The notes under the pieces: generated by a model
Told to the model about the DNA's origin: nothing
The model's database searches: none
Seen by the model: the letters and a program-made list of their open reading frames with translations, nothing else
Part shown: piece after piece, positions 13,530 through 37,317 of the stretch
How the letters are laid out: every line of letters begins with the position of its first letter
Position numbering within the stretch: the first letter of the stretch is position 1
Assembly: GCA_021816585.1 (NCBI GenBank)
Contig: JAKAXL010000001.1
Coordinates: 186,001 to 250,000, forward strand
Source of the DNA: Pseudomonadota bacterium
Lineage (GTDB): Bacteria; Pseudomonadota; Gammaproteobacteria; Burkholderiales; Burkholderiaceae_C
Direction of reading: 5' to 3'
DNA length: 64,000 nucleotides
Program-made: the position numbers and the translations under genes

Positions 13530-14483
13530 ATGGACCGCCTCGACACCATGCGCCTGTACACCCGCATCGTCGACCTCGGCAGCTTCACCGCTGCCGCGGA
13601 GGAGAGCGGCATCCCGCGCGCCACGGCCACCTATGCGGTCCAGCAGATGGAGAAGCGCCTGGGTGTGCGTCTGCTCGTGCGCTCCACCCGCCACGTCGCG
13701 ACGACGCCCGAAGGGCAGGTGTGGAATCTGCGCTGCCGACAGGTCCTCGCGGACATCGACGAGGCGCAATCGCAGCTGGGTGTCGCCTCCACCCGGGCGC
13801 AGGGCCGGCTGCGCGTCGACCTGCAGCCGAGCCTGGCGTCGGAGTTCGTGTTTCCGCGCCTGGCGGAGTTCTGCGCGCGCCATCCGGGGATCGAACTCGT
13901 GGTGGGCACCGGCGACCGGCTTGTCGACATGGTTCGCGAAGGTGTCGACTGCGTGCTGCGGGGAGGCGAGCCGCGCGAGCCGGGGCTGGTGGGCCGGCGC
14001 GTCGCGGCGCTGCCGATGGTCACCGTGGCGAGTCGCGAATACCTCGATCGCCATGGCGTGCCGCGCACGCTGGAGCAGTTCGCGCGGCATCGAGCGGTGA
14101 ACTATGTCTCGTCGGCCACCGGCAGGCCGATGCCCTTCCAGTTCGTCGTGGGCGGCAAGCCGCGCAGCGTGACCCTCGAGGGGGCGGTCAGCGTGACCAG
14201 CGCGGAGGCCTACAACGCGTGCGCGCTGCACGGCCTGGGCTTCATCCAGACGGCGCGCCTGCGACTCGAGGAACCGCTGCGCGACGGCAGCTTGGTGGAG
14301 GTGTTCCCGCAGTGGGCGCCACCGCCCGGCCCGGTCTGGGTGATGTACCCGCGCCAGCGCCACCTTGCGTTGCGTGTGCGGGTGTTCGTCGACTGGCTCG
14401 TGGAGCAGCTCGCGCCCTATGCTCCCGATCGGCTCGCGCAGGCCCGCGCGGCCCCGCGCGGCCGGGGGAGAACCGTGCTTTGA
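13530..14483 (+). CDS. LysR-family transcriptional regulator
   Basis: MDRLDTMRLYTRIVDLGSFTAAAEESGIPRATATYAVQQMEKRLGVRLL wHTH; substrate-binding domain. Confidence 0.93.
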   Translation: MDRLDTMRLYTRIVDLGSFTAAAEESGIPRATATYAVQQMEKRLGVRLLVRSTRHVATTPEGQVWNLRCRQVLADIDEAQSQLGVASTRAQGRLRVDLQPSLASEFVFPRLAEFCARHPGIELVVGTGDRLVDMVREGVDCVLRGGEPREPGLVGRRVAALPMVTVASREYLDRHGVPRTLEQFARHRAVNYVSSATGRPMPFQFVVGGKPRSVTLEGAVSVTSAEAYNACALHGLGFIQTARLRLEEPLRDGSLVEVFPQWAPPPGPVWVMYPRQRHLALRVRVFVDWLVEQLAPYAPDRLAQARAAPRGRGRTVL

Positions 14484-14573
14484 CGGCCGCGCCGTTCCTT
14501 GGGGGCTGGGATTGTGCGGTGCAGCGCCCTTGCGAAGCGCCGGCGAGGCCGCCGGGAGCGGATGGCGCGGGGC

Positions 14574-15743
14574 TCACGCGGCCGCGCGGCAACTCGCGAA
14601 TTCGGCCAGGCGCGCCGCCAGGCGGCTGCGCTCGCGCACCGCATCGCCCTGCAGCACCACACCGGTCAGCCGGCCGTCGGGCGCCTCGCGGTGCTCGAGC
14701 TGCAGCGAGTCCGGGGCGTCATGCAGCACCGACCAGTCGCCGCGCTCGCGCGCGGGAGGGAAGATCACGGTGGGACAGGCCGGTGTCTTGACCACGATCT
14801 GCACCGGCGGGTAGTCCACCGGCGTGGTGGTTCCGGTCAGGGTCCTGGCGAGGGCTCGCGCTCCCTGCAGGATCGGCATCACATAGGGCAGCAGCCTGCC
14901 GTGGACTTCGGCGCAATCGCCGAGCGCGAACACCCCGGGGTGCGAGGTCGCCAGGGCAGCATCGGTGCGGATCCCCGCGCCGGTGAGCAGGCCGGCCTCG
15001 CGTGCGAGGCGCAGCTCCGGTTGCAGGCCGGTCGCCGACAGCACGAGGTCGTAGCGCCCGCCTGCGCCACCCTCGGCGACGAGTTCCAGGGTGTGCGCCG
15101 TACCGCGCTCGATGCCCAGGATGGCCGAGCCCAGGTGCATTCCCACGCCGATGTCCTCGAGGCCGCGGCGCATGCGCTGCGAAGCCATGGCGGGAAGCAG
15201 CCGCGCCAGCGGCGCCGGGGCGACGTCGTACAGCTCGACGCCGAAGCCGCCGAGGCGCAGGTCGTTGGCGAATTCGCAGCCGATCAGGCCGGCGCCGACG
15301 ATGGCCACGCGTGACGCGGCCGCCAGGCGCCGGCGCATCGCCGCGTAGTCGTCGAGGTCGTTGATCGACATCACCTGGTCGGCCCCGTTGCCCGCGAGAT
15401 CCGGTCGCCGCTGCCGCGCGCCGACGGCCAGCACCAGCTGGTCGAAGCCGATCGCTCCGTCGCTGGTGTCGAGGCGGCGCGCTTCGAGGTCGAGGCTGCG
15501 GACCGTCACGCGCGGGTGGATCGCGATGCGCAGATCGGCGGCGAGTCGGGCGGCGTCCGCCAGGCGCAGTTGCTCGACGCCGCGCCCGGCGGCCAGCGCG
15601 TTGGACAACGCCGGCTTGGCGTAATGCTCGCCCGCCGACGCGGTGACGATGGCCACGTCGATTTCGCGGTCGATTCTGCGGATCTCGCGAGCCAGGGTCA
15701 CGCCGGCCAGGCCGCTGCCGATGATCACGATGGCGTGGTGCAT
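14574..15743 (-). CDS. NAD(P)H:rubredoxin reductase-like FAD oxidoreductase
   Basis: MHHAIVIIGSGLAGVTLAREIRR; VAIVGAGLIGCEFANDL; FALGDCAEV; C-terminal VDYPPVQIVVKTPACPTVIFPP typical of rubredoxin reductases. Confidence 0.85.
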   Translation of the reverse strand: MHHAIVIIGSGLAGVTLAREIRRIDREIDVAIVTASAGEHYAKPALSNALAAGRGVEQLRLADAARLAADLRIAIHPRVTVRSLDLEARRLDTSDGAIGFDQLVLAVGARQRRPDLAGNGADQVMSINDLDDYAAMRRRLAAASRVAIVGAGLIGCEFANDLRLGGFGVELYDVAPAPLARLLPAMASQRMRRGLEDIGVGMHLGSAILGIERGTAHTLELVAEGGAGGRYDLVLSATGLQPELRLAREAGLLTGAGIRTDAALATSHPGVFALGDCAEVHGRLLPYVMPILQGARALARTLTGTTTPVDYPPVQIVVKTPACPTVIFPPARERGDWSVLHDAPDSLQLEHREAPDGRLTGVVLQGDAVRERSRLAARLAEFASCRAAA

Positions 15744-15777
15744 GGTCGGCGCGCGTCGCAACGAGTCCGGGAGCGGC

Positions 15778-16332
15778 TCAGTCGGCCTCGATGGTGCCGA
15801 TCGAGAAGGCGATGGGGTTGCGCATCGTGTTGGCCACCGGCGAGTAGTAGTTGGCGGTCTTGACGATTTCGTCGAGTTCCTCGCGCGAGGCGTCGCCCTC
15901 GACGAGGACCTTCACGCGAATGCTCTGGAAGCCCATCTGCGCCGGCTCGCGCCGGGCACCGCCGGCTCCCCACGCGGCGGTGTTGCCGATGTCGGCCTCG
16001 AGGAAGATCTCCAGGCGCGACAGCTTGATCTGGCGCTCGGTGGCCACCGCGGTGATGCCCACTCCGAGGCAGCCGCCGAGGGCGGACAGCACGATCTCCC
16101 CGGGGGCCGGCGCGGTGTTCTCGCCGAACAGGTGCAGCGGTTCGTCGACCACCACGGGGTTGTGGATGCCGACGAAGCTCCAGGACCGGAACTGGCCCTG
16201 CATCACGGTATGGACCTTGTTGGTCCCGCGGCGCTCCGGGTTCTCCCGGCCGGCGCGGGCGAAGTCGAGCAGGCCGTCGCGGTCGATGGGACGCAGATGA
16301 CGGGTGGTGGTACTTGCGGTAGCTGTGGTCAT
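15778..16332 (-). CDS. OsmC family protein
   Basis: ...ENTAPAPGEIVLSALGGCLGVGITAVATERQIKLSRLEI: OsmC active-site Cys region. Confidence 0.88.
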   Translation of the reverse strand: MTTATASTTTRHLRPIDRDGLLDFARAGRENPERRGTNKVHTVMQGQFRSWSFVGIHNPVVVDEPLHLFGENTAPAPGEIVLSALGGCLGVGITAVATERQIKLSRLEIFLEADIGNTAAWGAGGARREPAQMGFQSIRVKVLVEGDASREELDEIVKTANYYSPVANTMRNPIAFSIGTIEAD

Positions 16333-16384
16333 GGTGTGCTCCAGGGGGCTGTGCGGGGCAGGGCCCGGGCCGGGCCCGACGGGG

Positions 16385-16828
16385 TCAATAGGTCTTGTAG
16401 GGCAGGAACTTGCCCGAGAGCAGGATCTGCACGCGGTCGCCGGCGTCGTTGGGCTCGCGCTGCAGGTCCATGCGGAAGTCGATGGCCGACATGATCCCGT
16501 CGCCGAATTCCTCGTGGATCAGTTCCTTGAGCGTGGTGCCGTAGACCGCGATCAGCTCCTGGAAGCGGTAGATCAGCGGGTCGGTGGCGATCGCGGTGGG
16601 CAGCGAGCCCTTGTACGGGACGACCTGCAGCAGCGCGACCGCCTCGGCGGGGAGATCGAAGATCTCGCCCAGGGTCGCCGCCTGCTCGGCGCTGAAGGTC
16701 ATCTGCCCCAGGCATCCGGCCGTGACCCATTCCTTGGACAGGCCCAGGCGCGCGGCCACGTCGGCCCAGCGCAGGCCCTTGCTGATCTTCGTGGCGACGA
16801 TCCGTTCGGTGACGTCGTGGCGATTCAT
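16385..16828 (-). CDS. cynS: cyanate hydratase (cyanase)
   Basis: MNRHDVTERIVATKISKGLRWADVAARLGLSKEWVTAGCLGQMTFS...DPLIYRFQELIAVYGTTLKELIHEEFGDGIMSAIDF; Arg/Glu/Ser active-site residues are in the expected context. Confidence 0.96.
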   Translation of the reverse strand: MNRHDVTERIVATKISKGLRWADVAARLGLSKEWVTAGCLGQMTFSAEQAATLGEIFDLPAEAVALLQVVPYKGSLPTAIATDPLIYRFQELIAVYGTTLKELIHEEFGDGIMSAIDFRMDLQREPNDAGDRVQILLSGKFLPYKTY

Positions 16829-16853
16829 GGTGCTTCTCCTGAAGGGTGGTGGA

Positions 16854-17777
16854 TCAATGGTTGACGACCTGGCGCAGCGCGCGTGGACGAGGCGCGTCGC
16901 CGGGAGACTCGGGCTCGACCAGACCGGGGCGCACCACCGGGGGGTGCACCGGGTCGTGCAGCGGCACCGCCGGTGCCGCGGCCGCGTAGTGCACCGAGCG
17001 GTTGACCAGGAAGTCGAGCAGGTGGTTGCGGATGCGGTAGTACTGCGGGTCGTGGTGCATGTCGGCCCGGGTGCGCTCGCGCGGCATCGTGATCTCGACG
17101 ATCTCGGCGATGCGCGCCAGCGGGCCGTTGCTCATCAGCAGGATGCGGTCGGCCAGCAAGATCGCCTCGTCGACATCGTGGGTGATCATGAACACCGTCT
17201 GCCGCGTGGCGCGCACGATGCGCAGCAACTCGTCCTGGATGCTGCCGCGGGTCAGCGCGTCGAGCGCGCCGAAGGGTTCGTCGAGCAGCAGCATCCTGGG
17301 CGCGATGGAGAAGGCGCGCGCGATGCCCACGCGCTGCTTCATGCCCCCGGAAAGCTGGTGGGGCTTCTTGTCGGCGGCCGCCGACATGCCGACCATCTCC
17401 AGATGCTGCAGGCTGTGCCTTCGCACCTGTTCGCGGCTCCACCCGGGCCAGCGCGACTTCACCGCGAAGGCCACGTTGCCCAGCACGCTGCGCCAGGGCA
17501 TCAGCGCATGGCCCTGGAACACCACGCCGCGGTCCAGCGACGGGCCGGCGAGTTCCTTGCCGTCCATGAACACGGCGCCGGCGCTGGGCGCCTCGAGTCC
17601 GGCCAGGATGTTGAGGATGGTGGTCTTGCCGCAGCCGGAGTGGCCGATCAGCGCGACCACCTCTCCGCGCTGCAGCTCGAAGTGGAGGTTCTCGAACACG
17701 GGGGGCGCGACGCGGCCGCGCGTGTCCGCGTAGGCCTTGGCCAGGGCTTCGACCTTCACGATGACGGATTCGGGCAT
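16854..17777 (-). CDS. nitrate/cyanate-type ABC transporter ATP-binding protein
   Basis: Walker A GHSGCGKTT, signature LSGGMKQRVGIARA, Walker B MLLLDEPFGALD. Confidence 0.9.
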   Translation of the reverse strand: MPESVIVKVEALAKAYADTRGRVAPPVFENLHFELQRGEVVALIGHSGCGKTTILNILAGLEAPSAGAVFMDGKELAGPSLDRGVVFQGHALMPWRSVLGNVAFAVKSRWPGWSREQVRRHSLQHLEMVGMSAAADKKPHQLSGGMKQRVGIARAFSIAPRMLLLDEPFGALDALTRGSIQDELLRIVRATRQTVFMITHDVDEAILLADRILLMSNGPLARIAEIVEITMPRERTRADMHHDPQYYRIRNHLLDFLVNRSVHYAAAAPAVPLHDPVHPPVVRPGLVEPESPGDAPRPRALRQVVNH

Positions 17778-17781
17778 GGTC

Positions 17782-18642
17782 TCACTCCGCGTAGGTCATG
17801 GCGCGCTGCAGGCGTGCGAACATCAGGTCCAGGGCCATGCCGACCAGGCCGATGAGCGCGATGGCGAACAGCATGGCGGGCAGCGCGAGGTTGTTCCACT
17901 CGTTCCAGACGAAGTAGCCGATGCCGGTGCCGCCGACGAGCATCTCGGCGGCGACGATGACCAGCCAGGCGATTCCCATCGAGATGCGCATGCCGGTGAG
18001 GATGGTCGGCGCGGCGGCCGGCAGGATCACCAGCACGGCCTTGCGCATCGGCGCCACCTGCAGGGTTCGCGCCACCTGCACCCATTCGCGGCGCACCCCG
18101 GCCACCCCGAACGCGGTGTTGATCAGCATGGGCCAGACCGAGCAGATGAAGATCACGAACACCGCGCTGACGTTGGCGTCCTTCAGCGTGTACAGCGCGA
18201 TGGGCATCCAGGCCAGCGGGGAGATCGGCTTGAGCACCTGGATGAACGGGTCCAGCGCGGCGCGCAACACGGGGAACAGTCCGATCAGGAAGCCCAGCGG
18301 CAGGGCCACCAGCACGGCCAGGCCGAAGCCCATGGCGACCCGCGCCAGCGAATAGCCCAGCTGCAGTCCGATGCCCTTGTCGTTGGGGCCGTGGTCGTAG
18401 AACGGATCGCGCAATTGCCGCGCGAAACTGCGGGCGACCTGCGCCGGGGTGGGGAACCCCGTCTGCGCCGGGGAGTCGGCGCCCTTCATGCCCATCAGTT
18501 CGGCGTACTGCGCGCTCACTCCGGGGGGCAGGCTGCGCGCCTTGGGCAGCGTGGCGAGCTGCCACACGGCGAGCACGATGGCGGCGAGGATCACGCTCAG
18601 CGCGGCGGAGCGCAGGCGGGGGGAAAGCGTGCGGGTTTTCAT
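17782..18642 (-). CDS. nitrate/cyanate-type ABC transporter permease
   Basis: MKTRTLSPRLRSAALSVILAAIVLAVWQLATLPKA...; EMLVGGTGIGYFVWNEWN permease (NrtB family) motif; start trimmed from ORF 17782..19779. Confidence 0.9.
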   Translation of the reverse strand: MKTRTLSPRLRSAALSVILAAIVLAVWQLATLPKARSLPPGVSAQYAELMGMKGADSPAQTGFPTPAQVARSFARQLRDPFYDHGPNDKGIGLQLGYSLARVAMGFGLAVLVALPLGFLIGLFPVLRAALDPFIQVLKPISPLAWMPIALYTLKDANVSAVFVIFICSVWPMLINTAFGVAGVRREWVQVARTLQVAPMRKAVLVILPAAAPTILTGMRISMGIAWLVIVAAEMLVGGTGIGYFVWNEWNNLALPAMLFAIALIGLVGMALDLMFARLQRAMTYAE

Positions 18643-18653
18643 GGCGCGGCTCC

Positions 18654-20015
18654 TCAGGGCCTGGCGCCGAGCGCCTTGACGTAGGCCTCGGGATGGTCGG
18701 GGTCGAAATGCCGGCCGAGGATCTCGTAGGACTGCATGTCCCGTGCGGGCGCGGGCATTCCCAGGCGGCGCATCGCGTTGCGCGCGTCGGTGGCGCGGAA
18801 CACCCGCTCGGCGATGCTGCGGTAGCCGGAGTCGCGGTGCAGATAGCCCCAGCGCCGCATCTCGACCAGGATCCACATCGCCATCGACGGCCACGGGAAG
18901 GGCTGGAAGCCGATGCGATCGGGCACGGTGCGCACATGGCCCAGCCCGTCGGCGAAGGTGCCGGTGAGCACCTGCTTGACGACGATCTTCGGCTGGTTGA
19001 GGTACTTGGGCTGCGCCAGCGTGTCGACGATGGCGTCGCGGTTGGCCGGCACGTTGAGGTACTGCGCCGAGCGCAGCATGGCGCGCAGCAGCGCGGCGTA
19101 GGTGTTCGGATTCTCGTGCGCGAAAGACTCCGGCATGGCGAAGGTGCAGCAGGGGTGGCCCTTCCAGAGGTCGACGCTCAGGGTCTGGATGAAGCCGATG
19201 CCTTCGTAGACCGCGCGCTGGTTGAAGGGCTCGGCGACGATGAATCCGTCGAGGTTGTCGCCCGCCAGGTTGGCCAGCATGTCGGGTGGCGCCATCACGC
19301 GAAGCTGCACGTCGCGGTCGGGGTCCAGCCCATGCGCGGCCAGGTACTCGCGCAGCAGGAAGTTGTGGATCGAATAGTCGAAGGGAATGGCCAGCCGGAA
19401 GCCCTTCCACTGCGAGGGATCGCGGCGTTCCTTGTGGCGCATGGCCAGCGTGATGGCGCTGCCGCCGACGTTGTCCATCAGCGCGGCCATCGTCGGCGAG
19501 GCCGTCGAGCCGGCGCCCAGACTGATGGCCAGGGGCATCGGCGCGAGCATCTGCGCGGCGTCGAAGTCGCGGTTCACCGTCTTGTCGCGCACCAGCGCCC
19601 AGCCCGGCGTCTTCAGCACTTCGACGTTCAGCCCGGATTGCTCGAAGTAGCCGTTCTCCTGGGCGATCAGGATCGGGCTGGCGCAGGTGATCGGCAGGTA
19701 GCCGATTTTCAGGCGGGTCTTCTCGAGTGCCCCGGCGGGCTCGGCGGCCAGCGCCTCGAGCATGCCGAAGGGGATGCACTCGGCCACGGCGCCCATCGCC
19801 GCGCTGCGGCCGACCGCGCGCAGGAAGGCGCGGCGCTGGCTGTCACGGGGGAACATCGCGCGCATCACCGCGGTCTGCAGCATGCGGCGGGTGTCGTCGG
19901 CGGGCTCCCCGGCCTGCCGCGTGCAGGCGACGTGCTCGGCCTGGTCGGCGTGGCGTCCGCAACTGCAGGTGCCGAGGCGGACCTCGGGATCGAAGGGGTC
20001 GACAGGCTGGCTCAT
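18654..20015 (-). CDS. CmpA/NrtA-family ABC transporter substrate-binding protein with Cys-rich N-terminal extension and Tat-like signal
   Basis: MSQPVDPFDPEVRLGTCSCGRHADQAEHVACTR...SQRRAFLRAVGRSAAMGAV...LKIGYLPITCASPILIAQENGYFEQSGLNVEVLKTPGWALVRDK; start trimmed from ORF 18654..21605. Confidence 0.9.
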   Translation of the reverse strand: MSQPVDPFDPEVRLGTCSCGRHADQAEHVACTRQAGEPADDTRRMLQTAVMRAMFPRDSQRRAFLRAVGRSAAMGAVAECIPFGMLEALAAEPAGALEKTRLKIGYLPITCASPILIAQENGYFEQSGLNVEVLKTPGWALVRDKTVNRDFDAAQMLAPMPLAISLGAGSTASPTMAALMDNVGGSAITLAMRHKERRDPSQWKGFRLAIPFDYSIHNFLLREYLAAHGLDPDRDVQLRVMAPPDMLANLAGDNLDGFIVAEPFNQRAVYEGIGFIQTLSVDLWKGHPCCTFAMPESFAHENPNTYAALLRAMLRSAQYLNVPANRDAIVDTLAQPKYLNQPKIVVKQVLTGTFADGLGHVRTVPDRIGFQPFPWPSMAMWILVEMRRWGYLHRDSGYRSIAERVFRATDARNAMRRLGMPAPARDMQSYEILGRHFDPDHPEAYVKALGARP

Positions 20016-20053
20016 GGCGGGCTCCGGTAGGGCGGGCGGTGGTAGCGGGGGAT

Positions 20054-20245
20054 TCAGAACACCAGGGGTTCGAAGTCGGCCTTGGTCACGCCGCATTCGG
20101 GGCAGTACCAGTCGTCGGGGATGTCGGCGAACGCGGTGCCCGGGGCGATCCCGTGCTCGGGCGCGCCGGTCTCGACGTCGTAGATCCAGTTGCACACGGT
20201 GCAGATCCACTGTGTCTGCAGGACTTCGGGGCTTGCGGCTTGCAT
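20054..20245 (-). CDS. rubredoxin
   Basis: WICTVCNWIYDVETGAPEHGIAPGTAFADIPDDWYCPECGVTKADFEPL: two CxxC knuckles. Confidence 0.96.
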   Translation of the reverse strand: MQAASPEVLQTQWICTVCNWIYDVETGAPEHGIAPGTAFADIPDDWYCPECGVTKADFEPLVF

Positions 20246-20263
20246 GGCGGTCTCCGGGGCGGT

Positions 20264-21451
20264 TCAGGTGCGGGCCGGCGCTTCCAGGCGCGCGATCTCC
20301 CAGCGCAGGTGCTTGGTCGCGGGGGTGACGATGGCGATGAACCAGGCCTCGCGCAGGCGGCGCTGCGCGGCGTTGCGCACGAGGTAGCCCTTGGCTCCCT
20401 GGTGCAGCATGGCCGCGCCGGCCGCGCGCAGACCGAGCTCGCCGCCGGCCAGGCGCAGCCGCAGCACGTCCAGGATGGGTGCAGGGCGCCCCGGATCGTC
20501 CAGCGCGTCGGCCAGCGCGTAGCTGGCGTCGCGGGCCTCGCGCAAGGCCGTCGCGATGTCGTCGACCTGGTCGTCGAGCAGCCGGTTGACATGCGAATGC
20601 GTGCGGTTGGCCTGCGCCATCAGGTCGGTGCAGGCCTCGATCAGGCCCAGGCCCATGCCCATCTGGGCGTGGATCATGCCGGGCTTGATGCGGGCCAGGT
20701 AATCGGCCGACTGGCTGACATGGGCCAGCACCATGGCGTCGGGCACGAAGTAGTCCTTGAAGTGGCAGGCCAGGGTGCGCGTGCCGTCGAGTCCGATGAA
20801 GTGCGCGCAGTCGACCAGCTTGATGCCCTCGTGGGCGCAGTCGATCAGGAAAAAGCCCAGCCCCAGGCTTTGCCCCTGCTCGTCGCGGACCGGGCATCCG
20901 GTGGTGAACACGTGGTCGGCGCCGAGGTTGGAGACCCAGGGCAGCACGCCCTGGATGCGATAGCCGCCGTCGACGCGGCGCGCCGACAGGCGGTACTCCT
21001 CGATGGTGTCGCAGGACTTCATGGTGTTGGACAGCCCGCTGCCGGCCAGCAGCTCGCCGCGCACGATGCGCGGCAGGTAGCTGCGCTTGAGGCCCTCGTT
21101 CGCGCTGAGTTCGAGGTAGCGGGCGCAGGCCGTCTGGCACCAGACCAAGAACCCCGTCGACACGCAGTGCCGCGAGACCTCCTCCATGACCCGGATCACA
21201 TGGTGCAGGCCACGGCCGTTGCCGCCGTGCGCGGGCGAGGCCGCGCCGCGGAAGCCGCCCCGGGCGCCGAGTTCGCGCAGGAAGGCTTCGGGGTATTCGG
21301 CCTTCAGGTCGACGTCGAGGACCTTCGGGGCCAGCACCTTGGCGACCAGCTCGCGCACGGTGTCGAGCGCATCGTCGTGTTCGCCGGCATCGGCCCCGGG
21401 GTCGCGCAGCGTCGAGGCGGATGCGGTCGCGACCAGCGCGGAAGGGATCAT
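20264..21451 (-). CDS. acyl-CoA dehydrogenase-fold flavoprotein (substrate unknown)
   Basis: MIPSALVATASASTLRDPG...; GGNGRGLHHVIRVMEEVSRHCVSTGFLVWCQT; acyl-CoA DH middle domain GYRIQGVLPWVSNLGADH. Canonical C-terminal catalytic-Glu motif (YEGT) not evident. Confidence 0.82.
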   Translation of the reverse strand: MIPSALVATASASTLRDPGADAGEHDDALDTVRELVAKVLAPKVLDVDLKAEYPEAFLRELGARGGFRGAASPAHGGNGRGLHHVIRVMEEVSRHCVSTGFLVWCQTACARYLELSANEGLKRSYLPRIVRGELLAGSGLSNTMKSCDTIEEYRLSARRVDGGYRIQGVLPWVSNLGADHVFTTGCPVRDEQGQSLGLGFFLIDCAHEGIKLVDCAHFIGLDGTRTLACHFKDYFVPDAMVLAHVSQSADYLARIKPGMIHAQMGMGLGLIEACTDLMAQANRTHSHVNRLLDDQVDDIATALREARDASYALADALDDPGRPAPILDVLRLRLAGGELGLRAAGAAMLHQGAKGYLVRNAAQRRLREAWFIAIVTPATKHLRWEIARLEAPART

Positions 21452-21504
21452 GGAAGGCTCCTGAGGGATGAAGACTCGGCGTCGCCGCCGTCGCCCCTCG
21501 ACCT

Positions 21505-21519
21505 GCAATCGCCGTGCCA
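21505..21519 (-). promoter_or_regulatory. sigma54 (-24/-12) promoter driving the 21451->14574 operon
   Basis: Minus strand TGGCAC-GGCGA-TTGC(A): exact GG-N10-GC spacing and consensus, 53 nt upstream of the ATG at 21451, directly downstream of a sigma54 activator gene. Confidence 0.8.
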
Positions 21520-21608
21520 GCTGCGTGCGTTCGCCGTGGTGTCAGGCGTACTGCCGGCGCGCCGCACCCCGCACGGGCACGCGGCACGACCGATGGTTCC
21601 CACAATGT

Positions 21609-23234
<1,626 letters not shown>

Positions 23235-23473
23235 GGCTCGGGTCCTGTGCAGCGGGGCACTGCGTGCCAATCAGGCCAGCAAGTTCGGTGCCCGGGCTCC
23301 CGGAGGTGGATGGGGCTTGCGACGCTGCCCGAGCACGCACCAGGGCTGGGCGTCGGCCGCGGCGCCCGCACTGCAATGGAGCCCGCGCCGCGGCGCCGAC
23401 CTAGGGAAACATCGTATTTGCACGATGCTTTGGACAATCTAGGATTTGATCAAAAATCAATTCCGAAGCCGCC

Positions 23474-24190
23474 ATGACCTCGACGCCCCAATCGCTGCGT
23501 GACGCCATCCCGAGCGCCGACCCGGCCTTGTCGCCGCTTCAGCGCGTCGAGGACTACGTGTTCGACCGCCTGTTGACCATGATCGCCAGGGGCGAACTGC
23601 TGCCCGGGGCGCGTCTGGTCGTGGCCGACCTCACGGCAGGCTTCGGGGTCAGCGCCACGCCGGTGCGCATGGCCATCTCGCGGCTGCACCAGGTCGGCCT
23701 GGTCGAGACCATCCCGCACCGCGGCGCACGCGTGGCGCGCATTTCGGTGGGGGAGATCCACGAGCTCTACGAAGTGCGTCGCATCCTCGAAGGGGCGGCC
23801 GCGCGCATCGCCGCCTGCAACATCGACGCCGACGGCATTGCCCGCCTCGAGGCCATCTGGCAGGTGTTCCGGCAGGCCGTGGATGCCGACGACGTGCATG
23901 GCGCCTACCAGGCCGACGTGGACTTTTTCGCGGTGTTCCATTCCTTCGCGAACAACAAGACCCTGCTGGCGACGATCCACGACATCCATCGACGCCTGCG
24001 TCTGTACAAGATGCTCTGGCTGTCCGCCGCGATCCATCGCAAGGACGAGCTGCAAAAGCTCAAGCCGGCGCTGCTCGATGCCTGCAGGGCCCGCTCTGCA
24101 GGCGCCGCGGAGTCCGCGACGCGTGCCTTCCTGACGCGCGCGGAACGTCAACTCGTGGAACTGGTGCAGGCGACGATGCAGTCGCCGTAG
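23474..24190 (+). CDS. GntR family (FCD-type) transcriptional regulator
   Basis: VEDYVFDRLLTMIARGELLPGARLVVADLTAGFGVSATPVRMAISRLHQVGLV wHTH + helical FCD-like effector domain. Confidence 0.9.
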   Translation: MTSTPQSLRDAIPSADPALSPLQRVEDYVFDRLLTMIARGELLPGARLVVADLTAGFGVSATPVRMAISRLHQVGLVETIPHRGARVARISVGEIHELYEVRRILEGAAARIAACNIDADGIARLEAIWQVFRQAVDADDVHGAYQADVDFFAVFHSFANNKTLLATIHDIHRRLRLYKMLWLSAAIHRKDELQKLKPALLDACRARSAGAAESATRAFLTRAERQLVELVQATMQSP

Positions 24191-33929: not shown

Positions 33930-34675
33930 CCAAGCCAATTTCCCTGCGCGGCGTTTCCTATGCCTACCCGACCCACCGGGGGCAGATGTTCGCGCTGCAG
34001 GACGTCGACCTGCTGATCCCGGCCTCGCAGTTCTGCTGCGTGCTCGGGCCCAGCGGCTGCGGCAAGACGACGATGATGAATCTGGTCGCCGGATTCCTGC
34101 AGCCGACTTCGGGTTCGGTCGACATCGACGGCAAGCCGATCCGCGAGGGCGCCGGCGACCGCGGCGTCGTGTTCCAGGACTTCAGCCAGCTGTTTCCGTG
34201 GCGCACCATCCGGGGCAACGTCGAGTTCGGGCTCGAGATCCGCGGCATGGACGCGGCGCGCCGGCGCGAGCGGGCCGAGGAGATCCTCGACCTCGTCGGC
34301 CTGAGCAAGTTCGCGCAATCGCATCCCCACCAGCTCTCCGGGGGCATGCAGCAGCGCGCGGCCATCGCGAGGGCGCTGGCCTACGACCCGCCGGTGCTGC
34401 TGATGGACGAGCCCTTCGCCGCGCTCGACGCCATGACCCGCGACGTCATGCAGAACCTGCTGGCCGAGATCTGGCAGAAGACCCGCAAGACGGTGCTGTA
34501 CATCACCCACAACGCCACCGAGGCGGCATTCCTGGGCCAGCGGGTGATCGTGCTCAGCGCGCACCCGGGGCGTATCAAGAGGGATTTCGCGGTCGATTTG
34601 CCCAGGCCGCGCGACCCGTTGTCGGATGCATTCGTGCACAAGGCCCGCGAGATCGTCGCGGCACTTGGCGAATAG
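33926..34675 (+). CDS. nitrate/sulfonate/taurine-type ABC transporter ATP-binding protein
   Basis: GPSGCGKTTMMNLVAGF; LSGGMQQRAAIARALAYDPPVLLMDEPFAALD. Confidence 0.93.
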   Translation: MTKPISLRGVSYAYPTHRGQMFALQDVDLLIPASQFCCVLGPSGCGKTTMMNLVAGFLQPTSGSVDIDGKPIREGAGDRGVVFQDFSQLFPWRTIRGNVEFGLEIRGMDAARRRERAEEILDLVGLSKFAQSHPHQLSGGMQQRAAIARALAYDPPVLLMDEPFAALDAMTRDVMQNLLAEIWQKTRKTVLYITHNATEAAFLGQRVIVLSAHPGRIKRDFAVDLPRPRDPLSDAFVHKAREIVAALGE

Positions 34676-34729
34676 CCGGCACGCGGCAGGCAGGGTTCGG
34701 GCAAACAACGATACGAACAGGAGACAGAC

Positions 34730-35722
34730 ATGAACCACAGCAACGCCAGGCGACGTTTCGTCGGCACCATGGGCAGGCTGGCGGTGGCCGGCGCCGCCGC
34801 GCCGACATGGGCCACGCGGGCTTTCGCCGCCAGCCCGCTGAACGTCGGCTACCAGGACACCTCGTGGGGCGCGGTGATGATGATCGGGCTGCAGGAGAAG
34901 CTGTTCGCGAAGGCGGGCTGCTCGCTGCAGCCGCACCTGTTCGACAGCGGCAACTCGACGCGCAACGCGATGATCTCCGGCGCCGTCGATGTCGGCGTGC
35001 TCGGGGTCACCCCGTTCATCCTCGGGGTGGAGAAGGCGCAGATGCACTCGCTGGCGGTGGCCATGTACGCCGGAGCGACGAACGCGGTGGTGGCGCGCAA
35101 TGGAAGCGGCATCAAGAGCATCGCCGACCTGAAGGGCAAGGTGGTCGCGTCGCAGGTCGGGTCGGCGACCGATTACGTGTTCCAGAACGTGATCCTTCCG
35201 CACTACGGCGTGAAGAAGTCGGAAGTGCGCATCATCAACGTGACCTTCCAGAACCAGGTCGCCGCGCTGCTCAGCAAGTCGGCCGACGCCTTCGCCGGCG
35301 TCGAGCCCTATCCGTCGGTGGCAATCGTCGACGGCATCGGCCACGAGCTGGTCGACTACGAGCAGTTCGACATGCAGCCGGTGTTCGTCGGCGTGGATCC
35401 GAAGCCCTATGCGAGCGACAAGCCCGAACTCGTCAAGTTCATGCGCGGCTGGCTCGAGGCCTCGGCCATGATCCGGCACGATCCGCAGCAGGCCTCGCGC
35501 ATCATCTGGGACCGCTTCAAGGCCCAGGGCTACTCCTTCAAGCAGGCGATCATCCAGCGCATGCTGTCGAAGCTGGACCTCGATCCCGCCTACCGCCCGA
35601 CGCTGGACGCCTACCTGAACAAGCAGGCCGGGATCCTGGTGCACGAAGGCAAGATCAGCCACGTTCCGGACTGGAAGTCGGCGCTGGACACGTCGATCCT
35701 GGCGCAGGCACGCAAGGCCTGA
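34730..35722 (+). CDS. NMT1/SsuA-like ABC transporter substrate-binding protein
   Basis: Tat-like leader NARRRFVGTMGRLAVAG; LNVGYQDTSWGAVMMIGLQEKLFAKAGCSLQPHLFDSGNSTRNAMISGAVDVGVLGVTPFI. Confidence 0.9.
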   Translation: MNHSNARRRFVGTMGRLAVAGAAAPTWATRAFAASPLNVGYQDTSWGAVMMIGLQEKLFAKAGCSLQPHLFDSGNSTRNAMISGAVDVGVLGVTPFILGVEKAQMHSLAVAMYAGATNAVVARNGSGIKSIADLKGKVVASQVGSATDYVFQNVILPHYGVKKSEVRIINVTFQNQVAALLSKSADAFAGVEPYPSVAIVDGIGHELVDYEQFDMQPVFVGVDPKPYASDKPELVKFMRGWLEASAMIRHDPQQASRIIWDRFKAQGYSFKQAIIQRMLSKLDLDPAYRPTLDAYLNKQAGILVHEGKISHVPDWKSALDTSILAQARKA

Positions 35723-35728
35723 TCCGCG

Positions 35729-36535
35729 ATGGCCGGCCCTTCCTCGGCGGCTGCGCGCAGCCGCGACCTGCTGGTGGACGCGCTGCTCGGCGCGAGCGTG
35801 TTCGTGGTCCTGGGCATCGCCTGGGACCTCGCGGCGCATGCCGGATGGTTCCCGGCGCGCCTGTTCCCGACCCTGGGCAGCATCGGCGATGCCTTCCTGC
35901 ACCTCGTCCATGACGGGGTGCTGCTGAAGGCCACCAAGGCGACCCTCGGGCGGCTGGTCGCGGGCTTCCTGCTCGGTGCGACTCCGGGGCTGGCGCTCGG
36001 CCTGCTGATGGGCCGCTTCGCGTGGCTCGAGGATTTCCTGATGCCGGTGGTCGACTTCTTCTATTCGATCCCCGGGATCGCCTACGCCCCGCTGTTCGTG
36101 CTGTGGTTCGGAGTCGGAGACCGCGCGGCCATCGTCATCGTCGCGTTCACCTCCAGCCTTCCGGTGCTGCTCAATACCTGGCGCGGCGTGCATTCGGTGC
36201 GCGAGATCTGGCTGCGCGCGGCGCGCGTGATGGGTGCGAGCGACGCCACCACGATCCTGCGGGTCATGTTCCCGGCCAGTCTGCCCTACATCCTCGCCGG
36301 CCTGCGCATCGGGCTGGGCAACGGCTGGCGCGTGCTGATCGCCGTCGAGATGCTCACCTCGGTGAGCGCGGGACTCGGCTGGGTGATCTTCAATTCGCAG
36401 CAGTTCCTCGATTCGGCGACCATGCTGGCGGCGATCCTGGTGATCGGGGTCATCGGCGTGGCGATCGAACTGGCCGTGTTCGGATCGATCGAGCGGCGCA
36501 CCATCGCCCGCTGGGGCATGGCGGTGAGCAAATGA
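35729..36535 (+). CDS. SsuC/TauC-type ABC transporter permease (first of two)
   Basis: IPGIAYAPLFVLWFGVGDRAAIVIVAFTSSLPVLLNTWRGV...ARVMGAS permease motif. Confidence 0.92.
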   Translation: MAGPSSAAARSRDLLVDALLGASVFVVLGIAWDLAAHAGWFPARLFPTLGSIGDAFLHLVHDGVLLKATKATLGRLVAGFLLGATPGLALGLLMGRFAWLEDFLMPVVDFFYSIPGIAYAPLFVLWFGVGDRAAIVIVAFTSSLPVLLNTWRGVHSVREIWLRAARVMGASDATTILRVMFPASLPYILAGLRIGLGNGWRVLIAVEMLTSVSAGLGWVIFNSQQFLDSATMLAAILVIGVIGVAIELAVFGSIERRTIARWGMAVSK

Positions 36536-37317
36536 GCACCAAGACCAACAAGTGGGGCCCGCTGCGCGGGCTGCTGGGTCTGCTCGCGCTGGCCGTGGCG
36601 TGGCAGTGGTTCGCCACGAGCGGCCTGTACTCGCAAGGGGTCACTCCCGGGCTCGGCACCATCGGCGCGTCGCTGTGGCACAAGCTGCGCGACGGCGCGC
36701 TGGAACTCGACGTGCTGGCGACCTTCGGCCGCGTGCTGTTCGGCCTCGCCGCGTCGGCGGTGATCTCGATTCCGCTGGCGGTGATGATGGGTCGGTACCG
36801 CGTCGCCAATCGCATGTGCGGACCGCTGATCAGCTTCCTGATGCCGATCCCGTCGCTGGCGATCGCGCCGCTGCTGGTGACGTGGTTCGGGATCGGCAAC
36901 GCCGCGGTGCTCATCGTCGTGACCTATGCGTCGGCGTTTCCGTGGATCTACAGCGTCAAGGCGGGGGTGGATTCGATCAACCAGGTGTGGATCAAGTCCG
37001 CCCAGGCGATGGGTGCGGACCGGCGCACCATCCTGCGCAAGGTGGTGCTGCCCGGCGTCGCTCCCTACATGCTCGCGGGTCTGCGCCTGGCCTTCGGCCG
37101 CGCCTGGGTTGCGGTGATCGGCGGCGAACTGCTGGCCAATCCGACGCACGGACTGGGAATCCGCATCTACGACGCCAACGAGTTCCTCGACACCAAGGTG
37201 ATGATCGGAGCCATCATCACCATCGGCCTGTTCGGAGTGATCGTCAATCGCTACCTGATCCGGCTGGTCGAGCGGCGCACCATCGTCAAGTGGGGCATGG
37301 CGCTGTCGCGCCGCTGA
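36532..37317 (+). CDS. SsuC/TauC-type ABC transporter permease (second, paralogous)
   Basis: IPSLAIAPLLVTWFGIGNAAVLIVVTYASAFPWIYSVKAGV...AQAMGAD; shares C-terminal ERRTI-x-x-WGMA motif with the preceding permease. Confidence 0.92.
   Translation: MSTKTNKWGPLRGLLGLLALAVAWQWFATSGLYSQGVTPGLGTIGASLWHKLRDGALELDVLATFGRVLFGLAASAVISIPLAVMMGRYRVANRMCGPLISFLMPIPSLAIAPLLVTWFGIGNAAVLIVVTYASAFPWIYSVKAGVDSINQVWIKSAQAMGADRRTILRKVVLPGVAPYMLAGLRLAFGRAWVAVIGGELLANPTHGLGIRIYDANEFLDTKVMIGAIITIGLFGVIVNRYLIRLVERRTIVKWGMALSRR

Follow-up and report, generated by a model that had tools for sequence, protein, structure and literature searches.

The window analysed here is a 64-kb stretch of DNA from a Thiomonas (Burkholderiales) genome. 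On its minus strand, a gene for a sigma54 enhancer-binding protein (EBP) is followed, after a gap of 158 nt, by eight further genes. An initial annotation had placed a perfect sigma54 -24/-12 promoter in this gap and tied the whole operon to the EBP. The locus therefore raises three questions: whether the site is a promoter at all, which activator would open it, and what the genes behind it do.

An exact sigma54 consensus ahead of an eight-gene operon

At the site, the minus strand reads CTGGCACGGCGATTGCAGG, and the core TGGCACGGCGATTGC spans 21519-21505. This core follows TGGCAC-N5-TTGC with GG-N10-GC spacing, and the 64-kb window contains no other exact match. One-mismatch matches are at chance level (5 observed, 5.7 expected), so that the informative part is limited to the exact match at this position. 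Within the 158-nt gap (70% GC), its score was equalled by none of 1,000 dinucleotide shuffles, using sigma54 weights that we set ourselves and that are approximate. The whole genome (3.4 Mb, 131 contigs, 94% complete) contains 16 exact matches, compared with 4 for a reversed control pattern; by our arithmetic, about 3e-4 matches are expected per such gap on one strand. The same genome encodes RpoN (209 bits). The letters of the annotated site were thus confirmed, as was its placement, 53 nt from the ATG at 21451 and 89 nt past the EBP stop at 21609, and the predicted TSS near 21493 is consistent with this position. An Rfam search of the region returned no RNA element. The 16 genomic sites (L001-L016) also constitute a list of candidate sigma54 promoters, about half of which, judged by eye, lie shortly 5' of a likely start codon.

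The eight genes are co-directional with the EBP gene and separated by intergenic gaps of 4-52 nt. The first encodes an ACAD-fold flavoprotein of 395 aa (20264..21451, assigned by Pfam, a structural model with pLDDT 90.7 and a PDB fold match), followed by a rubredoxin of 63 aa (20054..20245, Pfam). Three ABC transporter genes come next: a substrate-binding protein of the NMT1_2 family, NrtA/CynA-like (18654..20015, Pfam), an NrtB-type permease (17782..18642, above the TIGR01183 cut-off) and an NrtCD-type ATPase (16854..17777, above the TIGR01184 cut-off). The last three encode the cyanase CynS (16385..16828, above the TIGR00673 cut-off), an OsmC-family protein (15778..16332, Pfam) and a rubredoxin-NAD(P)H reductase with a rubredoxin-binding C-terminal domain (14574..15743, domain match). 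No minus-strand terminator was called within the operon, which is presumably read as one transcript. The cyanase and transporter point to cyanate, the uptake and breakdown of which is the most likely role of the operon. A second ABC transporter of the same broad family, comprising an ATPase, a binding protein and two permease-like matches, is encoded on the plus strand at 33938-37266.

Conservation of the site across relatives

The gene set recurs in Aromatoleum, Azonexus, Dechloromonas, Tepidiphilus, Sulfurisoma, Methyloversatilis, Aquabacterium and other genera. A GG-N10-GC site, perfect in many cases, was present in the matching gap of 24 out of 24 EBP-linked loci, those in which we were able to match an EBP gene with the operon; the relatives share ancestry, and their per-locus shuffle p-values are not independent. 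Among wider relatives, several of them with rearranged genes, 9 out of 10 loci have a sigma54 site 5' of the gene that opens the OsmC-ACAD operon. Such a site is usually retained even in loci where this operon does not immediately follow the EBP gene. In three loci examined, a separate cyn transporter operon is also preceded by a sigma54 site.

These results bear on the possibility that the match is accidental and that the operon is transcribed from a sigma70 promoter or by read-through of the EBP gene. The 158-nt gap would physically permit such read-through. However, the gap shuffles speak against a chance match, the site is found in every paired relative and is retained before the operon in rearranged loci, and no sigma70-like promoter was called across 14400-23500; we regard this explanation as very improbable. 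On the sequence evidence, 21505-21519 is a real, evolutionarily conserved sigma54-type promoter.

The adjacent activator

The EBP (541 aa, 21609..23234, minus strand) is intact and combines GAF, AAA+ and Fis-type HTH domains (Pfam), with the sigma54-activation AAA+ domain, the contact loop and the HTH all present. Its sigma54-contact loop (residues 286-291) reads GAYTGA, as do the other Thiomonas copies and the one at locus L076, and the remaining relatives in which the motif was found carry GAFTGA.

The protein had been called NifA-like, which would allow the EBP to be NifA itself and the system to belong to nitrogen fixation. The best NCBIfam model is indeed nifA (TIGR01817), the best PDB sequence match is a NifA chain, and the GAF-AAA+-HTH layout is that of NifA-type activators. 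Yet the score of 476 bits lies below the 528.85 cut-off, the operator described below is a different one, the window contains no TGT-N10-ACA site, the neighbouring genes are cyanate genes and no nifH was found in the genome. NifA-like therefore holds only as a fold-level label, and the identity of the EBP with NifA is hardly credible and, within the limits of a genome that is 94% complete, already refuted.

A double operator and an IHF-like box upstream of the promoter

We learnt an operator motif from the relatives' sequences upstream of the -24 element, with the window held out. The result was a double operator, CAAATTGTAAACAATTTGTGCACAAA, consisting of two TGTNNACA half-operators 11 bp apart and located 58-62 bp before the -24 element in about 20 of the 24 relatives. 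Counting TGTNNACA as an exact word revealed no signal in the window or in three Thiomonas relatives, whereas the learnt 26-bp motif did. The window copy, CAAATTGTGAACATTGTGGGAACCAT (21593..21618, minus strand), is a predicted EBP operator scoring 16.3 bits, and none of 5,000 shuffles was as good. The motif has no second occurrence in the genome, so the EBP looks dedicated to this locus. In more distant relatives the motif weakens, which suggests that the binding sites of these EBPs diverge.

About 20 of the 24 relatives also carry an IHF-like box, YAANNNNTTGATW, that ends 17-18 bp 5' of the -24 element; the box has no or one mismatch in 23 of the 24. The spacer between the elements is near random (median pairwise identity 0.29), indicating that conservation of the elements does not merely reflect recent ancestry. 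A comparison across relatives, which the initial annotation had proposed as a check, thus yielded both the site and a mostly fixed geometry with respect to the operator and the IHF-like box.

The window departs from this layout. The first half of its operator is good and the second degenerate, and the element overlaps the EBP stop codon. It lies 73 bp 5' of the -24 element, a spacing 11-15 bp longer than in typical relatives, and the alignment shows about 10 extra bases in the window. Between operator and promoter, the best match to the IHF consensus has three mismatches and is misplaced. Its degenerate enhancer and lost IHF box make this copy one of the least typical family members, and it may be weaker than the others. 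The initial annotation had suspected an enhancer in TTGTGAACATTGTGG at 21614-21600; this stretch does belong to the motif learnt from relatives and is significant as sequence, although the window holds a degenerate copy of it.

A second sigma54-like site, GGGCACCGAACTTGC (23279..23293, minus strand; one mismatch, p=0.004 by shuffling), lies 44 nt 5' of the EBP start codon. At this position, Thiomonas relatives carry a perfect TGGCAC-N5-TTGC site, TGGCACCGAAATTGC; the operator found 45 bp upstream of it, in three Thiomonas relatives, suggests that the EBP gene is autoregulated in that group. Most Rhodocyclaceae loci have TGGCA-type sites 5' of the EBP gene, and an operator is absent there, as it is in the window. 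The site at 23279-23293 could reflect autoregulation or nitrogen control. Further upstream, at about 23443-23463, a TTTGATCAAA-type palindrome precedes a divergent GntR/FCD regulator gene at 23474, and it is possibly that regulator's own operator.

Which activator controls the promoter

The adjacent EBP might act elsewhere, with a real sigma54 promoter here answering to a different activator, for instance NtrC when nitrogen is limiting. Ammonium represses the Pseudomonas cynABDS genes, suggesting an overlap with Ntr control (PMC6627978), and the sigma54-like site 5' of the EBP gene would also fit. Against this stand the conserved operator beside the promoter, unique in the genome, and the co-occurrence of the two genes class-wide. 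In a sample of 369 genomes from the class, the ACAD family (E<=1e-80) was detected in 13 and a close EBP (E<=1e-100) in 38. All 13 ACAD genomes also encode a close EBP (Fisher p about 2e-13 when the genome of the window is left out), and no more than about 10 kb separates the two genes in the loci that we examined. We consider control by another activator improbable.

The reading in which 21505-21519 is the promoter of the eight-gene operon, activated by the adjacent GAF-domain EBP through upstream operators, is in our judgement highly probable. It best explains the exact consensus, the conservation in all 24 paired loci and in nine of the ten wider ones, the mostly fixed geometry, the unique operator, the presence of rpoN and the intact EBP. 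The link between operon and EBP made in the initial annotation is supported on these comparative grounds. Under this model, sigma54 RNA polymerase would sit on the -24/-12 box, held closed, until the EBP senses an inducer, for which cyanate or another small cyano compound is the probable candidate. The EBP would bind the half-operators about 60-75 bp upstream, IHF would probably bend the DNA between operator and promoter in most relatives, and ATP hydrolysis by the EBP would open the promoter. EBP binding, the inducer and IHF binding are the parts of this scheme that we infer.

Relation to known systems

The closest described logic is that of CynF and cynABDS in Pseudomonas pseudoalcaligenes CECT5344, where a Fis-family sigma54 activator is encoded beside an ABC cyanate transporter and a cyanase, with a putative sigma54 site upstream of cynA and a putative sigma70 promoter for cynF; CynF is required for expression, and a cynF mutant lost cyanase activity and growth on cyanate (PMC6627978). 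The locus studied here likewise sets an EBP beside a cyanate-type ABC transporter and a cyanase with a sigma54 site. CynF was compared through its published description, and EBP homologues of about 50% identity are found divergent from, or adjoining, CynA-like genes. The two systems differ in several respects. cynF is divergent from its target operon, while the EBP gene is co-directional and preceded by a sigma54-like site; the Pseudomonas operon consists of cynABDS only, while the present one adds the ACAD protein, rubredoxin, OsmC protein and rubredoxin reductase. The near-fixed operator-IHF-promoter layout is a further difference. NitA and the Nit1C cluster also pair a sigma54 Fis-family activator with genes for the use of a cyano nitrogen source, but the nitrilase NitC, with other genes, forms the basis of Nit1C, and the present operon lacks a nitrilase (PMC11049912). 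In the open-access literature, searches that combined cyanase with rubredoxin, OsmC, rhodanese or Thiomonas yielded no paper on this cluster. The switch is thus of a known kind, that of CynF/cynABDS, and the enzyme set that it would control appears to be undescribed.

A possible step before cyanate

The structural model of the ACAD protein has a confident ACAD fold, and the structure search retrieved general ACADs, with no clue to the substrate. The protein scores below every curated NCBIfam cut-off. Its family has invariant Cys96 and Cys105 (WCQ motif) and a C-terminal QRRxRE/IVTP motif, and by our reading of the alignments the usual C-terminal catalytic Glu appears to be replaced within the conserved IVTP. 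The best fold matches share 17-24% identity with it, and the conserved WCQ and QRRxRE motifs and the apparently absent Glu set it apart. The acyl-CoA dehydrogenase (ACAD) fold family includes the monooxygenases DszC and SfnB, which have the same fold and weak sequence similarity to this protein. We infer that the ACAD protein is an oxygenase or an oxidoreductase for a small cyano compound, with electrons supplied through rubredoxin; together, the ACAD protein and rubredoxin may form a cyanate-producing oxygenase.

The linkage of genes around this protein suggests an oxidative pathway, since ACAD, rubredoxin, reductase and OsmC genes recur with cyanase in varied gene orders, in some loci with a rhodanese. 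A two-domain rhodanese is encoded inside the T. delicata operon (L073:10235-11101) and adjoins the cluster in several other loci; none was found in the window. On a Marinobacter plasmid, genes for the transporter, EBP, OsmC protein, ACAD protein, an FAD oxidoreductase and cynS occur together. In four loci (L054, L063, L074 and L077), an EBP-ACAD-OsmC unit occurs with no cyanase found in the stretch covered, which is short for some of them. The EBP is more closely linked to the ACAD protein than it is to cyanase, and this points to an undescribed reaction preceding cyanate. An EBP homologue of 49% identity, carried by a Klebsiella pneumoniae plasmid (L135), has genes for nitrile hydratase, carbon-nitrogen hydrolase and an ABC transporter as its neighbours.

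In its fullest form, the proposal is that the promoter controls an undescribed pathway in which the ACAD protein, rubredoxin and the reductase would oxygenate cyanide, thiocyanate or a similar compound to cyanate, which cyanase would convert to ammonia and CO2. We offer this pathway as speculative and, as it stands, rather unlikely. A cyanide monooxygenase has long been postulated and never demonstrated (PMC11049912); if the proposal is true, the ACAD enzyme would be a candidate for it.

Biological significance

For Thiomonas and bacteria of the Rhodocyclaceae type, the locus offers a clear and testable circuit that would regulate the use of cyanate, and its operator-IHF-promoter geometry is nearly fixed across many genera. 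An oxygenase that turns cyanide into cyanate has long been proposed but not demonstrated, and the circuit points to the step before cyanate, where such an enzyme would act.
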